64,000 bases of DNA, taken from Ewingella americana ATCC 33852. GTDB lineage: Bacteria > Pseudomonadota > Gammaproteobacteria > Enterobacterales > Enterobacteriaceae. Below, one piece after another: positions 31,839 to 54,488 of this stretch. The stretch lies in assembly GCF_000735345.1 (NCBI RefSeq), contig NZ_JMPJ01000065.1:62001-126000 (forward strand), read 5' to 3'. The first letter of the stretch is position 1. Each line of letters begins with the position of its first letter. Below the pieces are notes generated by a model that was given only the letters and a program-made list of their open reading frames with translations, searched no databases and was not told the origin of the DNA. The position numbers and the translations under genes were made by a program.

Positions 31839-32456
31839 AACTAAAAACATAACCGCTTTAATGCACAATAATTAGCTGCCAGATAAGAATACGCCTTGGA
31901 AAATACCCCTTTATCCTGCCTTGCCACCCTTCTTAGGAATTTTCCCGCTCAATTATCTCAAATTGCTAAATCTTCAAATTTCGAAAAAATGGAGTTTGCA
32001 GGGTTATTTCTCCATAAATTTCCGGCAGTAAGGCAAATAGTGCTCATCAAAGAGAGATAATGTTGTTTTAGCCCCGAGTGAGACTTCCAACAGCAACAGG
32101 CTCAGAAAACTCTTACTTCCAGCCATTAAAAAATCAGAATGCAATTATCTTGTTGTTTATTCTGCACATTTAATTAATTATGTTCAGTATTATCTTAGTT
32201 CGCAATCACTTCAAACGATCATTGAAAGACTTTTAATCGTTAAAACCTATTGAAAACGATCCCAAGCATCGGGTTAAACGATTTGTTTAGAACTTTATAT
32301 AATTTATATTGATTGTTAATTATTCATAAAAAACTAACCGCCCTTTTGTACAGAAAACTATTTTCTGTGCGTGAGCTTTATGCTTTCCGAAAGGTGGTTT
32401 TTCTCTGTGTGAATCGCCTTTTCGAGTGGATTATTTGTGTTACATGGAAGGCTATC
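31839..32456 (+). other. AT-rich non-coding stretch upstream of the LuxR-type gene
   Basis: About 600 bases with no gene I can support. The DNA is clearly more AT-rich than the genes on its left and has repeated AACGATC / GATCGTT-like elements near 32210-32285 (AAACGATC, TTTTAATCGTT, AAAACGATC, TTAAACGATT). This is typical of a long H-NS-type silenced regulatory region. An open frame from 32313 enters the LuxR gene, but its first 48 codons look non-coding. Confidence 0.5.
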
Positions 32457-33047
32457 ATGCCAAGAGTTATTATCTGGAGTGAATGTCAATATACTAAACT
32501 GGCGCTAGAAACGCTTATTCTAAAGTTGCCTTTCCACGTTGATGTTTTAACTCTCCCACAAAATAAAAACAGTATTACTTTCGACTCTTCCGATTATTTC
32601 ATTCTCGATCCCGCAGATAAAAGTTTTTCCCGATGCTATGAGTTTTTATTACAGCATCACGAGAGAATGGATGATAACCGGATGATTTTTTATTCGGAGT
32701 CGCTTGACGCCACCATCATGTCCACCTTGCTCAAAAGAGGCATTCGTTCTTTTTCTAAAAACAATAACTTACAAGAGACAAGCAACTTAATTACCAAGTT
32801 TATCTTGCTGAAGGATATTTCAGATTTATGCGATCAGCACTTCTTGTTGATCACTAAAATGGAAATAAAAATTCTTTCCATGCTGGTCTCAGGTGTTTCT
32901 ATCCGCGATATCTCGATGATATTAAAAAGAAGCATCAAAACGGTCAGTGCGCATAAATGCAATCTATTTAAAAAAATAGGCATAACGAATAATCAGGAAC
33001 TATTCTTTCTCTTTAACCATAGCGTTGCAGATATGACCGCGCTTTAG
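32457..33047 (+). CDS. LuxR-type response-regulator-like transcription factor
   Basis: A 196-residue DNA-binding protein. The N-terminal 125 residues form a receiver-like domain (MPRVIIWSECQYTKLALETL) that lacks an obvious phospho-acceptor aspartate triad. The C-terminal GerE/LuxR helix-turn-helix is at about residues 132-190 (KMEIKILSMLVSGVSIRDIS, KRSIKTVSAHKCNLFKKIGI). Layout and size resemble RcsA, BglJ, EcpR/MatA and MrkI-type regulators of surface structures. The chosen ATG has GGAAGG five bases upstream; the longer frame from 32313 does not. An EAL protein follows 58 bases later on the same strand, and the two likely form an operon. Confidence 0.82.
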   Translation: MPRVIIWSECQYTKLALETLILKLPFHVDVLTLPQNKNSITFDSSDYFILDPADKSFSRCYEFLLQHHERMDDNRMIFYSESLDATIMSTLLKRGIRSFSKNNNLQETSNLITKFILLKDISDLCDQHFLLITKMEIKILSMLVSGVSIRDISMILKRSIKTVSAHKCNLFKKIGITNNQELFFLFNHSVADMTAL

Positions 33048-34518: not shown

Positions 34519-34660
34519 CAAACACCTTTTTCTTATAACCAAATGGAACTTTTTGCAGGAAAAACATCCTTACATGTGTGCCATTGCCCTCTCGCGCTGG
34601 CTGACCCATTCTGGGATGATTACGCATTCACAACATGAAAACATTGAAACATGGCTATTT

Positions 34661-36400
34661 ATGACTAATAAACCTGGGAAATCGGCACCTTGGCGTGCTG
34701 TCTGGCAGTTAATTAAGCCTTATTGGCTTTCCGAAGAGAAGTGGCGTGCCTGGGGCATGTTATCCGCCATCGTTATCCTCTCTTTAGCCGGCGTCTATCT
34801 GAGCGTCCAACTCAATGAATGGAACAGAGTCTTTTACGACGCGCTGCAAAACCGCAATTACCCCGTTTTCAAAGCCCAGCTGTTTAAATTCACCTGGCTT
34901 GCACTGATTTTTATCGTCATTGCCATCTACAAAGTCTATCTGACCCAAGGCCTGCAAATGAGCTGGCGTCGCTGGATGACCGAAGAGTATATGGACAAGT
35001 GGCTGGGCAATCACGCCTATTATTACACGGAGTATCAGCATCAGGTCGATAACCCCGACCAGCGTATTGCTGAAGACCTCAACGCGCTGACCAGCGGCAC
35101 CCTTTCGCTGGTGCTTGGCCTGCTATCCAGCGTGGTCACCCTGTTCTCCTTTGTGTTTATTCTGTGGTCCATCAGCGGCCCGCTGACCTTTATGTTCTCC
35201 TCCCATGAATTCACCATTCCGGGCTATATGGTCTGGTTCGCCCTGCTCTACGCGGTGGTCGGCTCGGTGATTGTCTGGTGGGTGGGTAAGCCATTGGTTC
35301 GTTTAGGGTTCAACCAAGAATGGTTCGAAGCGAACTTCCGTTTTGGCCTGATCCGTATCCGCGAAAACAGCGATGCTATCGCGCTTTATCACGGTGAGAA
35401 GAGTGAACGCGACCAGCTGAGCAGCAAGTTTGAATCCATCAAAACCAACTGGTGGTCGATCATGAAAGTGACCCGTCGCCTCAACGTGGCCTCCACTTTC
35501 TATGCCCAGTTCGCCAACATCTTCCCGATTCTGGTGGCTTCGCCGCGTTACTTCTCCGGCGCAATCCAGATGGGTTCTTTGATGCAAATCTCCTCGGCCT
35601 TTGGTCAAGTGCAGGGCGCACTGTCGTGGTTTATCGGCGCCTTCACCGATTTAGCCAGCTGGAAAGCCTGTGTTAACCGTCTGGCCGGTTTCAACGCCGC
35701 CATCGATCAGGTGAACGCCCAGCCGCGCGGCATTGACGTGCGCGAGTCCGATAAAGTGGATCTGCAACTCGACGATTTGACCCTCAAGCTGCCAAACGGC
35801 ACCGCGCTGTTCAGCAATGTTTCCGCCAGCCTGCAAGCCGGTGAGCGCGTGCTGGTTGCTGGCCCGTCTGGCTGTGGTAAGTCCACCCTGCTGCGCGCTA
35901 TCGCCGGTATCTGGCCTTACGGCGCGGGCAGCATTCACCTCGCCGCAGGCAAGAGTTATCTGTTCCTGCCGCAGCGCAGCTATATTCCGATTGGCACCTT
36001 GCGCGAAGCCCTGAGCTATCCGCAATCGGACCGTGAATACACTGACGACCAGCTGAATACCGTGCTGGAGCAGTGCTGCCTGCCGCATCTGCAAAGCGTG
36101 TTGGATGACTATGCCAACTGGAGCCAGCGCCTGTCGCCGGGTGAGCAACAGCGCCTGTCGTTTGCTCGCGCGCTGCTGATTAAGCCTGCCATCCTGTTCC
36201 TCGACGAAGCCACCAGCGCGCTGGATGACGAAACCGAGCAGCGCATGTACAGCCTGTTAGTCAGCGAATTGCCGGACACCTCGGTGGTCAGCGTGGCGCA
36301 CCGCAACACCGTCGCCAAGTACCACCAGCACTGCTGGCGCTTCAAACGCAGCGAAGAGGGCGGCAGCCACTTCTCGGCGTCCGCATTACTGCCTGAATAA
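34661..36400 (+). CDS. ABC transporter fusion protein, YddA / SbmA-BacA-like
   Basis: A 579-residue half-transporter: an N-terminal SbmA/BacA-like membrane domain with about six helices, then an ATPase domain with Walker A GPSGCGKST at about residue 410, signature LSPGEQQRLSFAR and Walker B ILFLDEATSALD. The membrane part has the family landmarks LNEWNRVFYDALQ and SWRRWMTEEYMDKWL. It works as a homodimer; E. coli YddA has no proven substrate, while relatives import peptides or vitamin B12-like compounds. The ATG at 34661 fits the family start (MTNKPGKSAPWRAVWQLIKP) but has no clear ribosome site; the frame opens at 34553. It is divergent from the TPR lipoprotein gene. Confidence 0.88.
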   Translation: MTNKPGKSAPWRAVWQLIKPYWLSEEKWRAWGMLSAIVILSLAGVYLSVQLNEWNRVFYDALQNRNYPVFKAQLFKFTWLALIFIVIAIYKVYLTQGLQMSWRRWMTEEYMDKWLGNHAYYYTEYQHQVDNPDQRIAEDLNALTSGTLSLVLGLLSSVVTLFSFVFILWSISGPLTFMFSSHEFTIPGYMVWFALLYAVVGSVIVWWVGKPLVRLGFNQEWFEANFRFGLIRIRENSDAIALYHGEKSERDQLSSKFESIKTNWWSIMKVTRRLNVASTFYAQFANIFPILVASPRYFSGAIQMGSLMQISSAFGQVQGALSWFIGAFTDLASWKACVNRLAGFNAAIDQVNAQPRGIDVRESDKVDLQLDDLTLKLPNGTALFSNVSASLQAGERVLVAGPSGCGKSTLLRAIAGIWPYGAGSIHLAAGKSYLFLPQRSYIPIGTLREALSYPQSDREYTDDQLNTVLEQCCLPHLQSVLDDYANWSQRLSPGEQQRLSFARALLIKPAILFLDEATSALDDETEQRMYSLLVSELPDTSVVSVAHRNTVAKYHQHCWRFKRSEEGGSHFSASALLPE

Positions 36401-37348: not shown

Positions 37349-38947
37349 TTAGCTAATCCCTGACAGCTCGGCTTTCACCAGATTCGCCACCTGCTCGACC
37401 TGCGGGCCATAAATCACGTGTACGTCATTGTCAGTCACCCGCTTCACCCCCATCGCGCCAGTTTTCAGCAACTTGTCATCTTGCACTTGCGACATATCTT
37501 TGACCTTCACGCGCAGGCGGGTGAAGCAGCAATCCACCTGAGAGATATTGCCTTCGCCGCCCAGCCCCAGAATGATCTCTTTGGTCTTCTGATTGCCTTC
37601 GGCAGGCTTGGCGCGCTCTTCGGCATCATTCTCATCTTCACGCCCCGGCGTTTTGATCTGCATGCGTAAGATCACCCAGCGGAAGCTGAAGTAGTAGATC
37701 GGCGCGTAGATGATCCCGAGGATCAGCGGGTACCACCAGTGGGTTTTCGCCCCACCGAGCACGCCGAAGATCAGGAAGTCGATCGCCCCGCCCTGCACGT
37801 TGCCGATCATCACGTGGAACATCTGCATCAGCACAAATGAAACCCCGGTCAGCACGGCGTGCAGCACGTAGAGCACCGGCGAAACAAAGATAAAGCAGAA
37901 CTCCAGCGGCTCGGTGATCCCCGTGGTGAAGGAGGCCAGCGCCCCGGCCAGCATCAAGGCTTTCACCCGCCCTTTATGCTCTGGCCGCGCGCAGTGATAC
38001 ATCGCCAGCGCCGCCGCAGGCAGCCCAAACATCATCACCGGGATTTTCCCTTGAGCCAGGAAGCGCGTGGCCTGCTGGGTCACGGTATCGGTAATAGCGC
38101 CGGGATTGGCGAGCGAGGCGTTGAAGATATTCAGCGCGCCAACGATGCTCTGGTTGTCCACCGTCGTCACACCACCAATTGGCGTAAAACGCACGGTTTC
38201 ATTGATGATATGGTGCAAGCCGGTGGGGATCAGCAGCCGTTCGGAAGTGGCATAAATAAAGGTGCCAATCTCGCCGGTGCGCCCGATCAACTCCCCCACC
38301 CACTGAATGCCCTCGGCGATGGTCGGCCAAACCAGCGACATCAGCACGCCGACAATTGGCAGCACCAGCACGGTAATAATCGGCACAAAGCGCCGCCCGC
38401 CGAAGAAGGCGATGGCCGTCGGTAAGGTTATGGTGTAGAAGCGATTGTGCAGCCACATGGTGATCAAACCGACCAGCACCCCGCCCAGCACGCTCATGTT
38501 ATAGGTGAAAATACCCAGCGTTTGGGTGAACTCGGCGGCGTAGATCATCGCCTCACTTTGCGACATTCCCTGCGCAGTAAGGTGCGCCACGCTGATGGTG
38601 TCCGGCGTAATGTTCTGCGCCAGTAAGCTATAATTAACCCCAACGTGCAGCCCCACAAAGCCGATCACTGCGGAGAAAGCCGCGGTGGCTTTCTCTGCAT
38701 TGGCCAGCCCCATTGCCGTCGCAACGGCAAAAAACAGTGGCAGGTTGGCGAACAGCGCTCCGGAAACCTGACGAATAAAGCCGATCACCAGCTGCAAAGA
38801 TTTTATTTCAGCGAAAGCTTCGCCCGTTACCGCCGGGTTCTGCAACGCCGCCGCCAGCCCCAAAAATATCCCGGCTGCCGCGATCACCGAGATCGGCGTC
38901 ATCAGCGCTTTACCCAGATCATGGATTTTGCTGCCTAATTTGATCAT
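37349..38947 (-). CDS. PTS EIICB permease of the glucose/maltose/alpha-glucoside family
   Basis: A 532-residue sugar phosphotransferase permease. The EIIC membrane domain (residues about 1-425) contains ERLLIPTGLHHIINE and GITEPLEF, hallmarks of the glucose superfamily. A linker rich in Asp, Glu and Lys leads to an EIIB domain with the phosphorylated Cys474 in CCFTRLR. No EIIA domain is fused, so EIIA-Glc (Crr) must supply phosphate. It resembles MalX and GlvC/AglA-type permeases; the substrate is probably a glucoside or hexose, but no hydrolase or isomerase gene adjoins to decide. GAGGG precedes the start. Confidence 0.88.
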   Translation of the reverse strand: MIKLGSKIHDLGKALMTPISVIAAAGIFLGLAAALQNPAVTGEAFAEIKSLQLVIGFIRQVSGALFANLPLFFAVATAMGLANAEKATAAFSAVIGFVGLHVGVNYSLLAQNITPDTISVAHLTAQGMSQSEAMIYAAEFTQTLGIFTYNMSVLGGVLVGLITMWLHNRFYTITLPTAIAFFGGRRFVPIITVLVLPIVGVLMSLVWPTIAEGIQWVGELIGRTGEIGTFIYATSERLLIPTGLHHIINETVRFTPIGGVTTVDNQSIVGALNIFNASLANPGAITDTVTQQATRFLAQGKIPVMMFGLPAAALAMYHCARPEHKGRVKALMLAGALASFTTGITEPLEFCFIFVSPVLYVLHAVLTGVSFVLMQMFHVMIGNVQGGAIDFLIFGVLGGAKTHWWYPLILGIIYAPIYYFSFRWVILRMQIKTPGREDENDAEERAKPAEGNQKTKEIILGLGGEGNISQVDCCFTRLRVKVKDMSQVQDDKLLKTGAMGVKRVTDNDVHVIYGPQVEQVANLVKAELSGIS

Positions 38948-39020: not shown

Positions 39021-39090
39021 ATAATGGCCGAGAGTATGAATGGGATCACAGTTTGGGGGGAATGAGTAAAACAAGGATGAAACAGGGTTA

Positions 39091-39129
39091 AGCCGGAAAC
39101 TGCGTGAAGGTCTTAGAGGGTTTCCGGCT
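39091..39129. terminator. Ten-base inverted repeat between the PTS gene and the Ner-like gene
   Basis: AGCCGGAAAC at 39091-39100 pairs perfectly with GTTTCCGGCT at 39120-39129 over a 19-base loop. It lies just downstream of the Ner-like gene on the minus strand and has no T tract. It may mark the left edge of the AT-rich islet or end transcription from it. Confidence 0.45.
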
Positions 39130-39157
39130 GAAAGTACGCCAAGAGCTGACCTTATTT

Positions 39158-39478
39158 TTAGACTTCAGCCGTTGCGTTGAAATGTTCTTTTTCGTGAGCT
39201 TCAATCTCCACTGCAACTTTTTTCCTACGCATAATTTTGACGATAAGCCTTCCCTGTTCATCAAAATATCGGCTCGGCCAAATGACGCTAGGAGGTAATT
39301 TCAAAGCATCAGCAATGATTTTCTCGCCTTTAGGCCATGACCTAGAGAGTGCATTAGCCAATGTCGAAGAACTTAGCCCCGAAGCTCTAGATACTGCCGC
39401 AAGTGTGGTACCACTTTTTCGTAACGCAGCAATAATGTCAGCCTGATGCCAGTCGCAAGCAGTTATCTTTCTTTTCAT
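39158..39478 (-). CDS. Ner/Nlp-like helix-turn-helix regulator
   Basis: A 106-residue DNA-binding protein of the phage Mu Ner / SfsB (Nlp) family, seen in the block DWHQADIIAALRKSGTTLAA, SGLSSSTLANALSRSWPKGE, KIIADALKLPPSVIWPSRYF. Ner is the negative regulator of early transcription in Mu-like phages, and Nlp is a chromosomal relative. The C-terminal extension is rich in Lys, Arg and Glu. The frame opens at 39523; the ATG at 39478 has AAGGA upstream and is chosen. It is divergent from an XRE gene across 120 AT-rich bases. It is a phage-derived regulator with no other Mu gene nearby. Confidence 0.85.
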   Translation of the reverse strand: MKRKITACDWHQADIIAALRKSGTTLAAVSRASGLSSSTLANALSRSWPKGEKIIADALKLPPSVIWPSRYFDEQGRLIVKIMRRKKVAVEIEAHEKEHFNATAEV

Positions 39479-39534
39479 AGTGATGTCCTTTTCAGTTAAG
39501 TTGCTCATCGAGCACCAACCCAATGATTATCCTG

Positions 39535-39577
39535 TTTTGGGATATTACAGTAAAGCGATGATATTCGTTTTTGGGAT
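39535..39577. promoter_or_regulatory. Direct repeats between the Ner-like and XRE genes
   Basis: TTTTGGGAT occurs at 39535-39543 and again at 39569-39577, 34 bases apart, in the short divergent promoter region. CCCAA at 39519-39523 adds an inverted half-site. These are candidate operators for one or both repressors. Confidence 0.5.
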
Positions 39578-39599
39578 TTTTTTATAACGAGTATTTTTG

Positions 39600-39830
39600 A
39601 TGGCTTCGATTTATAACAGTGATTATCAGGAAGTGATTGGTCTGCTGAAGAAAGCAAGACAGGACAAAGGGATCACACAAGTTCAACTGGCGGAACTGCT
39701 CGGAAAACCGCAATCTTTTGTCGCTAAATTCGAAAGTGGCGAACGCAGGTTAGATGTTGTTGAATTCGCTCGCATTGCAAAGTTGTTAGATGTGAGCGCA
39801 CTGGAAACACTTAATAAAATCTTTAAATAA
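39600..39830 (+). CDS. Small XRE-family (Cro/CI-type) repressor
   Basis: A 76-residue helix-turn-helix protein consisting only of an HTH_3 domain: EVIGLLKKARQDKGITQVQL, ELLGKPQSFVAKFESGERRL, VVEFARIAKLLDVS. ATG at 39600 is preferred to the TTG one codon earlier. It lies 57 bases before the KAP NTPase gene on the same strand, so it is probably the first gene of a two-gene operon and its autoregulator. Small XRE proteins in this position are common in toxin-antitoxin and phage-defence operons, but no toxin motif is seen here. Confidence 0.88.
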   Translation: MASIYNSDYQEVIGLLKKARQDKGITQVQLAELLGKPQSFVAKFESGERRLDVVEFARIAKLLDVSALETLNKIFK

Positions 39831-39887
39831 AAGCTCAGTGATTTTCTATTAATTTTTAACTACACATTATCTCTACAAGGAAATTCT

Positions 39888-41396
39888 ATGAATTGGGATT
39901 GGAGTGAAGAAGTTCAATATTTAAATGAAACATTACCTCCCGATAATCTAGACCGTGCAAAATATGCCAAATTCCTTTACGAAGTTGCGGCGAAGCGAGG
40001 AGAAACTTCGAACTTAGTTATTAATATCAATGCCGAATGGGGCGCTGGTAAAACGCATTTTACTCGTCGATTGGCACAAACCATTCAAGAAAAACATCCA
40101 ACAGTATATGTTGATGCCTGGAAGCAGGATTTTTCTGATGATCCTTTACTCGCTATATTTTCTTGTATTTCAGAACAACTCGGAAATCAATCTGATAAAT
40201 TCATTTCACTAATGAAGAAAACTGAAAAAAAAGTAGGAATACTTTTAAAAGGTGTAGCACCGGCTGTGGTTCAAGGAATAATCAAAAAAACCACCGGTAT
40301 TGATGATATTTCTGAGATAGCAAAAAGTTTAACAGAAAATATGATTGAACTGCATAAAGAAAAAAGTGCTGTAATCGAGGATATAAAAAAAGATTTATCC
40401 GAATGGGTTCAATTTATAAAACAAAAAGATGCAATGAAAAAGGACCTCCCTATTTTTATATTTATTGATGAATTAGATAGATGCAGGCCGAGCTATGCCA
40501 TTGACCTTCTTGAGATTGTAAAACATATATTTGATGTTAAAGGAATGGTTTTCTTCATATCAACTGACACCGCACAATTACAGCATTCGATAAAAGTTGT
40601 TTACGGACAAGGATTTGATGCACAACACTATTTAGGCAGATTCTTTGATCGAAGGTTTATCTTGGCAGCACCAAAAATAAATAAACTTTTGATGCAAAAA
40701 ACAGCCAGCAATTTCATTAATGAATTTTCAATAAAAACGGAGAAGCTCACACCAAAACCATTAAGTATTGAAAACTTCATCACAACACTTTCTAATATAT
40801 TTGAAGGTCTTGAAGTAAACCTCAGAGATTCAATAAAATATTATGATAAGTTATGCGACATAATAATCACCGAGGAAAGATATTATGACCCATATCTATT
40901 ATTACTTTTGATGTTTATTTATGATAAAGAAACGGATTTATATTTAAAAATAAAGAGCAAAAATGAAGACAATTTCAAAGCAAACGATTTATTAGCGTAC
41001 CCCAATAAATTATCATATTCCTTTAATAAAGAGCTCACTCTAAAAATAGACATTTCTGAAGAATCAACAGGTGTAATGTCTCTTTATGATCGAAGTGAAG
41101 GAAATGGATATAAATACAACATACCAAACAACAACGGCGTCGTTAATAGATCGTTCGAGCTAAGAGAATATTTAATAACATCCTTAAGCATAGCAAAAGC
41201 AGAAAATGCAACAAGTGAATATATCGATGAGTATGGAAATAATGTAACTGAAAGATGGATGTCAGGTGAAATTGAGAATGACAATAGTGTTGACATGTTT
41301 TTAAAATTGAGTTGGGCTTTTAGAAAAGATAACTCACTAGATCTTAAATTTGATGACTACTTTGATCTAGTTGAGCTATCAACAATATTGAATTAG
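39888..41396 (+). CDS. KAP-family P-loop NTPase
   Basis: A 502-residue NTPase of the KAP family (STAND class). Walker A is INAEWGAGKTHF (Gly52 to Thr56); the KAP-specific VDAWKQDFSDDPL follows at about residues 75-87; Walker B is PIFIFIDELDRCRP (Asp194-Glu195). Between them is the insert that carries membrane helices in many KAP proteins; here it has only one moderately hydrophobic stretch (VGILLKGVAPAVVQGII), so membrane attachment is doubtful. The C-terminal 200 residues are unassigned. Relatives include F-plasmid PifA, which excludes phage T7. The gene is markedly AT-rich compared with its right-hand neighbours, suggesting horizontal transfer. AAGGAA precedes the start. It lies behind a small XRE repressor. 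No transposase or integrase adjoins. Confidence 0.85.
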   Translation: MNWDWSEEVQYLNETLPPDNLDRAKYAKFLYEVAAKRGETSNLVININAEWGAGKTHFTRRLAQTIQEKHPTVYVDAWKQDFSDDPLLAIFSCISEQLGNQSDKFISLMKKTEKKVGILLKGVAPAVVQGIIKKTTGIDDISEIAKSLTENMIELHKEKSAVIEDIKKDLSEWVQFIKQKDAMKKDLPIFIFIDELDRCRPSYAIDLLEIVKHIFDVKGMVFFISTDTAQLQHSIKVVYGQGFDAQHYLGRFFDRRFILAAPKINKLLMQKTASNFINEFSIKTEKLTPKPLSIENFITTLSNIFEGLEVNLRDSIKYYDKLCDIIITEERYYDPYLLLLLMFIYDKETDLYLKIKSKNEDNFKANDLLAYPNKLSYSFNKELTLKIDISEESTGVMSLYDRSEGNGYKYNIPNNNGVVNRSFELREYLITSLSIAKAENATSEYIDEYGNNVTERWMSGEIENDNSVDMFLKLSWAFRKDNSLDLKFDDYFDLVELSTILN

Positions 41397-41411
41397 GCAA
41401 CAATATATTAA

Positions 41412-41437
41412 ACTAGGCGCAGAATACTGTGCCTAGT
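41412..41437. terminator. Eleven-base-pair hairpin after the KAP gene
   Basis: ACTAGGCGCAG / CTGTGCCTAGT with an AATA loop and one G-T pair, 16 bases after the stop, no T tract. It may end the islet's transcript or mark its right boundary. Confidence 0.5.
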
Positions 41438-41579
41438 ACATCGCCTCCTGCTTCAACGACTACACGCTGCGCTTCATCTCCTTATGTTAAAATTGTTAAA
41501 AATATTACTACCCATAAAAGCCCTACTTTTACCGCGCCTCTCCCAGCGCGGGTTAATCAAGACTCTTTAAGGAAGCACT

Positions 41580-43490
41580 ATGGCTATCTCTCGCCGCGAT
41601 TTTCTCAACGGTGTGGCTATTACCGTCACTGCCGGCATGACGCCGTGGCAGGCGCTGCAAGCCTCGCCGCAAACTGCGACGCAAACTCTCTATTACCCGC
41701 CTTCATTGACCGGCCTGCGTGGCAACCATCAGGGCTCTTATGAGGCGGCGCACCTGCTTGGGCGCGAAGGTAAAAAAGTGGATCCTTCAAGCTTGCCGAT
41801 TGAGGGTGAGTTTGACTTGGTGATTGTCGGCGCGGGCATTAGCGGGCTGGCGGCGGCGTGCTTCTGGCAGGAGCAGCATGGCAAGCAGCAGCGGATCCTG
41901 CTGCTGGACAACCACGATGACTTTGGCGGCCACGCCAAGCGCAATGAGTTCCATGTCGAAGATAAAACTATTCTCGGCTATGGCGGCAGTGAGTCTTTCC
42001 AGTCGCCGCGCACCAATTTCAGCCCGGTGGCGATGGGCCTGCTGAAGACGCTGGACGTTGATATCGAGCGCATGGCGAAAGACTTCGACCAGACCTTCTA
42101 CCCGGACCTGCACCTTAGCCGTGGCGTCTATTTCGACCGCAAAAACTTCGGCGTGGATAAAATCGTCAGTGGCGATCCGGGCCGCGCCGTGGCCGATGAT
42201 ATCCCACCAGAGCGCCTCAACGGCCGAGATATCAGCGACTTTATCAGCGACTTCCCGCTGTCGGAAGCTGACCGTAAAACCTTGATTGCGCTGCATACGG
42301 AGTCGAAAGATTATCTGGCGGGCATGAGCAAAGAGCAGAAAATCGAGTGGGTTGATAGCCACAGCTATACCCAGTTCCTGCGTGAAAAGGTGGGCTTGAG
42401 CGAAATCGCCATTCGCTACTTCCAGCAGCGGACCAACGATTTTCAGGCCGTGGGCATTGACGCCACCTCGTGCAGCGACGCGCGGATCTGCGCCCTGCCG
42501 GGTCTGGAAGGCATGGGCTTGCCGCCGCTGGATGCCGAATCCCTCGCCGACCTCGACGAGCCTTACATCTTCCACTTCCCGGACGGCAACGCCGGTCTGG
42601 CGCGGCTGATGGTGCGCCATCTGATCCCCGAAGTAGCGCCGGGCAGCACCATGGACGACGTGGTGTTGGCGAAATTTGATTACAGCCAGCTCGACCGCGA
42701 AGGCGCGCCGGTTCGCCTGCGCCTGAACAGCACCGGCATGCACGTCGAAAACATTGAGCATCAGGGCAAGCCAGCGGTGGAAGTGACCTACATGACCGGC
42801 AGCAAGCTGCACCGCGTGCGCGCCGGGCAGGCGGTGATGGCCGGTTACAACATGATGATCCCTTATCTCGTGCCGGAAATGGCGGAAGAGCAAAAGGCCG
42901 CGCTGAAGGAGAACGTCAAAGCGCCGCTGGTCTATTCCAAAGTGGTGATCCGCAACTGGCAGCCGTTCATCAAGCTCGGGGTGCATGAGATTTACTCCCC
43001 CGCCGCGCCCTACAGCCGCGTCAAGCTCGACTATCCGGTCAATATGGGCGGCTACCAGCACCCGCGCGACCCGAACCAGCCGATTGGCCTGCACATGGTT
43101 TACGTGCCGACCCTGCCGGGCAGCGGCCTCAGCCCACGCGAGCAGTCGCGCAAGGGCCGGGCTTTATTGCTGGGCACCTCGTTTGACGCCCACGAGAAGA
43201 TGATCCGCGAGCAGCTGCAAGGAATGTTCGGCGAAGCCGGTTTTGACCATCAGCGCGACATCATGGCGATCACCGTCAATCGCTGGTCCCACGGCTACTC
43301 CTACTTCCTCAGCGGCATGTTTGATGATGAAGCCGAAGCGCAGAAAACCATTCAGCGCGCCCGCCAGCCGGTCGGTCGCATCACCATTGCCAACTCCGAC
43401 GCAGACTGGAGTCCGTACGCCAACTCGGCCATCGATCAGGCATGGCGCGCGGTCAACGAACTGACCGCTATGAAGAAGGTGAACGCATGA
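41580..43490 (+). CDS. Tat-exported FAD-dependent oxidoreductase, spermidine dehydrogenase-like
   Basis: A 636-residue flavoprotein. The twin-arginine signal SRRDFLNGVAI marks export of a folded protein to the periplasm. The Rossmann FAD motif VIVGAGISGLAAACF is at about residue 80, followed by LLLDNHDDFGGHAKRNEF and a C-terminal NRWSHGYSYF block. Overall similarity is to SpdH-type spermidine dehydrogenases of the amine-oxidase superfamily, which oxidise spermidine to 1,3-diaminopropane and an aldehyde; the assignment is from family resemblance. It overlaps a tri-haem cytochrome c gene by 4 bases, so electrons probably pass to that cytochrome and then to the respiratory chain. AAGGA precedes the start. 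Confidence 0.8.
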   Translation: MAISRRDFLNGVAITVTAGMTPWQALQASPQTATQTLYYPPSLTGLRGNHQGSYEAAHLLGREGKKVDPSSLPIEGEFDLVIVGAGISGLAAACFWQEQHGKQQRILLLDNHDDFGGHAKRNEFHVEDKTILGYGGSESFQSPRTNFSPVAMGLLKTLDVDIERMAKDFDQTFYPDLHLSRGVYFDRKNFGVDKIVSGDPGRAVADDIPPERLNGRDISDFISDFPLSEADRKTLIALHTESKDYLAGMSKEQKIEWVDSHSYTQFLREKVGLSEIAIRYFQQRTNDFQAVGIDATSCSDARICALPGLEGMGLPPLDAESLADLDEPYIFHFPDGNAGLARLMVRHLIPEVAPGSTMDDVVLAKFDYSQLDREGAPVRLRLNSTGMHVENIEHQGKPAVEVTYMTGSKLHRVRAGQAVMAGYNMMIPYLVPEMAEEQKAALKENVKAPLVYSKVVIRNWQPFIKLGVHEIYSPAAPYSRVKLDYPVNMGGYQHPRDPNQPIGLHMVYVPTLPGSGLSPREQSRKGRALLLGTSFDAHEKMIREQLQGMFGEAGFDHQRDIMAITVNRWSHGYSYFLSGMFDDEAEAQKTIQRARQPVGRITIANSDADWSPYANSAIDQAWRAVNELTAMKKVNA

Positions 43491-54134: not shown

Positions 54135-54488
54135 ATGATGCGCAATACCATTAAAATTGACGGAGTCACGGCTGTCATCACTTTTGATCCGGACATTGAA
54201 ATGTTTCGCGGAGAGTTTTTAAACCTTAACGGCGGTGCCGATTTTTATGCCGACAGTGTTGAGCAGCTGAAGAAAGAAGGGGCTATTTCCCTGAAGGTGT
54301 TTTTCGACGTCTGCAAAGAGAAAGAGATCAATCCGTTTAAATCCTTCAGTGGCAAAGTCACCACCCGACTGTCTCCGGCCTACCATGAAGCGCTGGTTAT
54401 TGCTTCACAGGCTACAGGTCATTCGATTAATGATCTGCTGAATGAGGGCACCCAGTTGGTGCTGAAGAGATATGAGTATGTAATCTAA
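54135..54488 (+). CDS. Orphan HicB-family antitoxin-like protein
   Basis: A 117-residue protein with an N-terminal HicB-like partial RNase H fold (IKIDGVTAVITFDPDIEMFR, EFLNLNGGADFYADSVEQLK) and a C-terminal ribbon-helix-helix DNA-binding segment (TTRLSPAYHEALVIASQATG, HSINDLLNEG). HicB normally neutralises the mRNA-cleaving toxin HicA encoded next to it. No HicA frame is visible within 300 bases on either side, so it is a solitary regulator or a relic. An 8-base palindrome lies upstream. Two ATG codons stand in tandem at the start. Confidence 0.85.
   Translation: MMRNTIKIDGVTAVITFDPDIEMFRGEFLNLNGGADFYADSVEQLKKEGAISLKVFFDVCKEKEINPFKSFSGKVTTRLSPAYHEALVIASQATGHSINDLLNEGTQLVLKRYEYVI

Follow-up and report, generated by a model that had tools for sequence, protein, structure and literature searches.

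Here we describe an AT-rich islet of Ewingella americana ATCC 33852 that may serve in defence against phages. It lies between treB and an oxidoreductase gene in a 64,000-nucleotide stretch (the window) of a 4.87-Mb genome assembled in 92 contigs. The open reading frame (ORF) listing places three intact genes inside it: a gene for a Ner/SfsB-type repressor and, divergent from it, a gene for a small XRE regulator, which lies 57 bases directly upstream, on the same strand, of a gene for a KAP-family P-loop NTPase (Table 1). Over positions 40001–41000 the G+C content is 31.6%, whereas the 3 kb on the left side have 57–58% and the 2 kb starting at 42001 have 60%. By gene, it is 32.1% for KAP, 41.7% for XRE, 44.3% for the Ner-like gene and 57.7% for treB. 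The profile confirms the islet's AT-richness, which had been claimed in an earlier reading of the sequence alone (the sequence-only reading).

The 502-residue NTPase matches the KAP domain PF07693 with 137.6 bits (cut-off 20), bearing out its earlier assignment to this family, and is the single KAP match in its own genome at E 0.001. A comparison with PADLOC, one of the checks proposed by the sequence-only reading, returned as best family the candidate family PDC-S20 (3.9e-86 over residues 19–375; all PDC-S20 model matches, 3.9e-86, 8e-56, 4.1e-35 and 2.7e-33), with further matches to PifA (1.5e-15) and QatA (2.4e-12). The suggestion that the protein belongs to the same broad family as PifA therefore holds for the KAP family as a whole, with PifA itself a distant relative. 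Two identities were rejected, that of a PifA-type protein, since the PifA match trails that to PDC-S20 by about 70 orders of magnitude, and that of QatABCD, since QatA scores 38.7 bits where 600 are required and Ner, XRE and KAP are the sole islet genes.

The Walker A motif and a DELDRCRP-type Walker B motif are both present, with residues that are invariant or nearly so in the alignment. In a conservation profile computed over 71 rows, residues 1–275 form the core (mean 2.50 bits), and the C-terminal part, unassigned in the sequence-only reading, divides into a conserved lid-like part at residues 276–345 (1.69 bits, R313 invariant), a hypervariable stretch and a conserved tail. Searches for a solved structure gave no convincing relative with the single sequence (two rows, E 0.07 and 0.7) and none at 0.01 with the 71-row profile. 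The highest 19-residue mean hydropathy is 1.31, which gives no sign of an inserted transmembrane segment; many KAP-family members lack transmembrane segments. The title of the founding paper of the family, as cited in PMC11846954, mentions an NTPase domain with transmembrane insertions.

The relatives of this NTPase point to a prophage origin. We examined 160 KAP loci (the best 80 of 565 confirmed in genome contigs and the best 80 of 259 confirmed in viral contigs) and built a tree of 67 rows, comprising the islet protein, the 60 top-ranking of 156 complete proteins and six further proteins chosen by hand. The islet KAP is nested in a 32-row clade (support 100/99) and also falls inside a 17-row clade (100/99) and a 4-row set (99/95). 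Its 31 clade mates all lie between the CI repressor and the integrase of P2-type prophages. In 27 of 27 measured rows, a CI gene lies upstream of KAP, from overlapping it to 1672 bp away, and the integrase follows downstream within at most 195 bp; the other four rows were placed by annotation (L063–L065) or by annotation or ORFs (L047). Among the 160 loci, 27 have a P2-type CI gene on the same strand within 1.1 kb upstream. The islet KAP is 46–50% identical to the nearer prophage members and about 37% identical to others such as L064. In an E. coli collection, 27 of 5426 genomes contain a relative at the DNA level, none covering 80% of the gene. Some measured clade rows have space for an additional gene between CI and KAP. 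In the P2-type prophage of genome G069 this space holds a BRCT-domain protein (L047:8442-8930), which may be a partner, and the gap in L152–L154 is about as large. Among the more distantly related KAP genes, some are found between HsdS and HsdR genes (for instance at L060:4220-11670, in the operon of a type I restriction system), next to SduA or following a SIR2 gene.

What else occupies the place between CI and integrase was examined in eight E. coli prophages out of 14 rows listed for a related integrase, which itself matches 1621 genomes. Three of the eight carry larger genes there, encoding a DUF4041 protein, a 314-residue hypothetical protein, and two hypothetical proteins with an ASCH protein, respectively. 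The other five carry one small ORF each (YdcA in four, a hypothetical protein in one), one of them with ClbS and an insertion sequence in addition. The DUF4041 protein matches the PADLOC model PD-Lambda-1 (2.3e-120) and one of the two hypotheticals of the ASCH prophage matches PDC-M11A (2.4e-130), whereas the 314-residue protein matched nothing in the PADLOC and domain searches. These two types of protein can be seen in their slots at L402:1742-3415 and L396:2003-3070. A DUF4041 protein is counted among experimentally validated defence proteins by Vassallo et al. (2022; PMC9519451), and a cI-int defence hotspot is described for P2-related prophages of Vibrionaceae by Rousset et al. (2022; PMC9122126). 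In E. coli P2-type prophages the CI-int slot is a defence slot distinct from that between the replication gene and the portal, and the two PADLOC matches among sister-slot genes raise our confidence in a defence role for the islet.

In the islet, the place of CI is taken by a different switch. The intergenic region between the Ner-like and XRE genes contains two operator-like sites, O1 and O2, each occurring once in the window when one mismatch is allowed (0.00 and 0.02 expected by chance). We aligned six such regions, from the window, G002 (another genome of the genus), an Enterobacter plasmid, a Klebsiella plasmid record with integrative and conjugative element (ICE) genes, G045 and G239; ATCC..TTTTGGGATA and GATATTCG.TTT..GGAT are common to all six, and most other columns vary. 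The window therefore carries what we call a Ner/XRE cassette, with divergent Ner-family and XRE genes and O1/O2 between them. Promoter-like sites in the stretch are at chance level (9 found, 8.6 expected), and the sole intergenic one, 39554-39526 on the minus strand, points toward Ner and overlaps O1. The sequence-only reading had spoken of two phage-type repressors. The divergent repressors are indeed there; the XRE protein, however, belongs to a controller-protein-like family and is not a P2-type CI.

At E 0.001, six small regulators of solved structure match the XRE protein. The strongest of these are XRE proteins without a given name (3f6w, 1.6e-14), and the restriction-modification (R-M) controllers C.BclI (6.6e-07) and C.AhdI (1.2e-04) are in the set too. 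The XRE protein also matches the Control_protein model (8.5e-06), so that a C-protein-like regulator stands upstream of the effector. Its relatives directly precede an EcoRV-type endonuclease (L271) and REase_II genes (L270, L364 and L373), and one (L382) precedes a type III methylase (MTase_III) by 76 bp. The family, as judged from its sequences, includes R-M controller-like proteins, while ORFs and domain search reveal no restriction endonuclease and methyltransferase among the islet genes next to XRE. A small XRE protein directly ahead of a larger effector, with operator-like sites before it and a resemblance, below curated cut-offs, to Y4mF- and HipB-type antitoxins, would also suit a toxin-antitoxin-like or stabilising pair, in which KAP would be the toxin and specific phage sensing would play no part. 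We consider this quite unlikely. The domain search recognised no toxin domain in the KAP protein, several XRE relatives precede restriction enzymes, as noted above, and the prophage relatives manage without an XRE of this family, which is found directly upstream (≤400 bp) in none of the 160 KAP loci.

Table 1. Features of the islet and its immediate neighbours (window coordinates)
Feature	Position	Strand	Details
treB	37349-38947	-	left neighbour of islet
AT-rich islet	39061-41474		no counterpart in closest relative, G001
Left hairpin	39091-39129		11-bp arms 39091-39101 / 39119-39129; 3' of Ner-like gene; z -3.6
Ner/SfsB-type repressor, 106 aa	39161-39478 (39158 with stop)	-	ATG at 39478; HTH_35 1e-33, phrog_769 5e-31
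O1, operator-like	39528-39544	+	inverted repeat TATCCTGTTTTGGGATA; 73 bp ahead of XRE start
O2, operator-like	39560-39577	+	GATATTCGTTTTTGGGAT; 41 bp ahead of XRE start
XRE regulator, 76 aa	39600-39827 (39830 with stop)	+	HTH_3 1.4e-13 (one extra start codon included in the scan)
KAP-family P-loop NTPase, 502 aa	39888-41393 (41396 with stop)	+	KAP_NTPase 7e-40; PDC-S20
Walker A, residues 51-56	40038-40055	+	WGAGKT; motif, alignment
Walker B and KAP signature, residues 190-201	40455-40490	+	FIFIDELDRCRP; motif, alignment
Hypervariable stretch, residues 346-480	40923-41327	+	mean information 0.83 bits
Conserved C-terminal tail, residues 481-502	41328-41393	+	1.86 bits
Right hairpin	41412-41437		11-bp arms 41412-41422 / 41427-41437; past KAP stop; z -5.2
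Oxidoreductase gene	41580-43490	+	right neighbour of islet

The Ner/XRE pair is also found in other bacteria. XRE relatives at 1e-13 are found in 42 of 392 genomes of the family, the islet's own included, and the 47 loci surveyed are those of the window and G002, two records from the plasmid collection and 43 stretches from other genomes; they are not independent, as some genomes give two, and 41 of the 42 matching genomes were opened. A divergent Ner-family gene is present in 31 of the 47 and two tandem XRE copies in 16. O1 is found in 31, O2 in 30 and either in 37, with O1 beginning 69–74 bp and O2 37–42 bp before the XRE start wherever found, with a single exception in L275, where an O1-like site lies at 36 bp. 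A further twelve XRE loci, more distantly related, stand outside this set (L276–L283, where no Ner match is listed beside XRE, and L269–L272, read from annotation only). The pair occurs on chromosomes and in plasmid records, mostly without cargo, and in several loci it adjoins tyrosine integrases or sits in an ICE-like region.

A same-strand ORF lies within 300 bp downstream of XRE in 14 of the 47 loci, and seven of these were discounted as short (71–114 residues in L318, L323, L325, L330, L341 and L342) or spurious (a repetitive 258-residue frame in L273). Besides the window, this leaves L267, L315, L316, L336, L339 and L352. The L267 cargo (368 residues) has no known domain, with no Pfam match over cut-off, no PADLOC match and no solved relative; by eye it looks like a nuclease. 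That of L315 (431 residues; L316 has a 189-residue version) likewise has no known domain and no PADLOC match. L336 and L339 encode HNH proteins that match PADLOC HNH models (5e-24 and 2.4e-130), L339 having neither Ner nor operators, and L352 has a YhgA-like cargo without PADLOC match, with operators present and Ner not called. At the mtn (methionine salvage) locus the cassette of L267 has cargo and that of L317 has none. The cassette sits repeatedly in or beside mtn genes (L267:5622-7397, L317:4898-5522 and L273:5967-6630), with the 368-residue cargo on the Enterobacter plasmid (L267) and no clear cargo elsewhere.

Of six plasmid-collection records opened, two have a restriction enzyme directly after XRE. 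Viral contigs gave a further 43 XRE loci, with Ner in six, an operator in 12, a second XRE in seven and a same-strand ORF of at least 150 residues within 300 bp in nine, none of which has Ner. Seven of these nine ORFs were searched (those of L374 and L379 resemble L373 and L378 by their first residues), yielding REase_II in L364 and L373, MTase_III in L382 and no domain match for L369, L371, L372 and L378. Exchangeable cargo behind Ner/XRE is thus seen but is rare. Since most Ner/XRE pairs have no in-line cargo, the pair does not qualify as a switch dedicated to defence, a role that the 14 of 47 loci with a downstream ORF, seven of them discounted, leave unsupported. The link to defence is weak for the pair as such and becomes stronger when the entire XRE family is considered.

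The KAP protein belongs to a prophage clade and the Ner/XRE pair recurs by itself, and the islet therefore looks like a chimera of a prophage effector and a borrowed switch. We propose, with a probability of roughly 0.65, that it constitutes a self-standing phage-exclusion unit built from two separately travelling parts, an anti-phage NTPase under autogenous control. The sequence-only reading had suggested a possible defence system, and this is supported by the PDC-S20 match, the relatives in the CI-int slot and the PD-Lambda-1 and PDC-M11A slot genes, the role against phages being predicted from sequence. In such a unit, XRE, together with Ner, would bind O1 and O2 and keep XRE-KAP transcription low and self-limited, paralleling the role of CI in prophages and of C proteins in R-M systems. 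While the switch keeps the unit quiet, the NTPase would wait as a sensor. By analogy with sensor NTPases, its hypervariable region could recognise an incoming phage component, whereupon the core would assemble in a nucleotide-dependent manner and phage development, or the cell, would be stopped. The unit is broken or absent in close relatives, as may befall a costly defence gene.

Several points weigh against this proposal. The islet lies outside any defence island, with no PADLOC match in four of five scanned neighbours and, in the fifth (an ABC transporter, 34553-36400), matches of the general-ATPase kind only (mad3 and mad8). Several distant KAP relatives (at least L048 and L050–L053) appear by eye to lie amid metabolic-looking genes, the CI-int slot is without a large gene in five of the eight sister prophages, and the predominance of Ner/XRE pairs without cargo counts here as well. 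The promoter scan found no plus-strand site before XRE. The neighbourhood search for XRE-KAP pairs that had been proposed earlier found none in the 160 KAP loci, so that the combination rests on the window and one decayed copy (in G002), and a widespread XRE-KAP pair was rejected. Neither an XRE-KAP nor a Ner-XRE-KAP unit occurs in the titles and abstracts of the literature searched, in which we also found no paper naming PDC-S20, and we know of no phage test of the islet KAP protein.

The history of the islet was followed in six genomes of the genus, its own included. In G001, the closest relative, the flanks are 93.6% and 94.7% identical and the islet is absent; the gap between treB and the oxidoreductase gene is occupied instead by different DNA of about 625 bases that includes a DUF559 gene (L043:3957-4322; PF04480, 6.2e-29), which shows that the spot is variable within the genus. 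In G002 (79% identical on the treB side), XRE is intact at the same place, 83% identical and with both operators, while the Ner gene has a broken frame and a missing end, and KAP is reduced to a tail of 46 codons corresponding to residues 457–502, at 41% identity. That the tail has only 41% identity where XRE has 83% is consistent with rapid evolution of the effector, with decay or with a different KAP allele. G004 has treB with an efflux operon nearby, no islet, and a different KAP relative (a 770-residue frame) elsewhere. G003, whose contig stops about 130 bases past the matching stretch, and G005, which has no close treB, show no KAP match at E 0.001 and no XRE match at 1e-13. The comparison of sister strains proposed earlier thus finds the islet absent in G001 and G004 and decayed in G002.

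A recent insertion with a clean empty site was rejected, because G001 has other DNA at the site and G002 a decayed cassette; with this copy at the same place in G002, the islet is older than the sequence-only reading implied. That reading had named vertical conservation in the genus as evidence against defence, and the decayed copy in G002 goes part of the way to such conservation; an intact KAP of islet type is present in none of the five other genomes. The presence of the islet at this place in two species would agree with a housekeeping NTPase of the genus unconnected with phages, which we regard as very improbable given this lack of intact copies and the prophage-type nature of all 31 other clade rows. 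The islet could also be a decaying remnant of an integrative element, with Ner/XRE as its switch and KAP as a passenger of little present function. The damage to Ner and KAP in G002, the absence of the islet in G001 and the integrases and ICE-like region near other Ner/XRE pairs agree with such a remnant, but all three frames in the window are intact, the islet has no integrase gene (attachment sites were not searched for) and the XRE protein is conserved between species. Between the two species, pN is 0.09 and pS 0.90 for XRE (this pS being beyond correction), with 0.05 and 0.63 for treB, and the XRE protein changes little. A remnant therefore seems unlikely.

In its surroundings, both hairpins reported earlier at the borders were confirmed, in that none of 200 shuffles folds equally well for either; the terminator scan calls neither of them. 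The stretch unmatched in G001 slightly exceeds the hairpin-to-hairpin span. As stated in the sequence-only reading, no mobility gene is found among the three islet genes (ORF listing and domain search). No tRNA was detected within the 64-kb window. Two other AT-rich spots were noticed: 32313-33047 (35% G+C), with a LuxR-like regulator and an EAL-like protein, both by eye, and 54135-54488, with a HicB-like protein by eye and no HicA-like gene noticed among the ORFs listed there.

If the islet is a phage-exclusion unit of this kind, the tree and the conserved operators suggest how an effector from the lysogeny module of a prophage can leave the phage and stay under another repressor. The same type of NTPase under CI in prophages and under Ner/XRE in the islet offers a clear comparison. 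More speculatively, and in our view doubtful at present, Ner/XRE with its two operators might be a general plug-in control chassis for interchangeable effectors, which would settle in chromosomes, on plasmids and in integrative elements and place a captured defence gene under phage-style control with no phage involved. Its effectors might then be the P2-prophage KAP here and, in other loci, a restriction-type HNH nuclease, a YhgA-like protein and proteins with no known domain. The operators are conserved enough for a pattern search for further cassettes, with and without cargo.

Among known systems, type II R-M C proteins resemble the islet XRE in size, in the C.BclI and C.AhdI matches and in having the effector directly downstream; its strongest matches of solved structure, however, belong to other small XRE proteins, and the islet has no restriction enzyme or methylase. 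PifA, QatA and Tmn share the KAP P-loop domain with the islet protein, which, at 502 residues, is shorter than the PifA (720) and QatA (593–646) models, and the QatBCD partners are absent. Tmn, which stops T2, P1 and other phages by a mechanism described as unexplored in PMC11846954, is a KAP protein with two transmembrane domains, whereas the islet protein has no strongly hydrophobic pair, and Tmn is not among its PADLOC matches. Campylobacter CJIE4 has a KAP gene in a block beginning with a CI repressor, for which PMC3995785 proposes superinfection immunity; this is a prophage gene with CI nearby, likened to the islet by description, and its immunity function is a proposal. PDC-S20, a PADLOC candidate family of single-gene KAP NTPases, gives the best profile match but, as far as the model shows, includes no regulator cassette, unlike the islet. 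The defence slots of P2-type prophages hold variable defence cargo at fixed places, and the portions of PMC9122126 and PMC9519451 at hand do not name a KAP protein; the islet gene lies outside a prophage. The CI-int KAP proteins of P2-type prophages (E. coli W and others) are accompanied by CI, integrase and other phage genes that the islet does not have, its own arrangement being XRE upstream and Ner divergent; with them the islet protein shares both its clade and a helix-turn-helix repressor upstream on the same strand.

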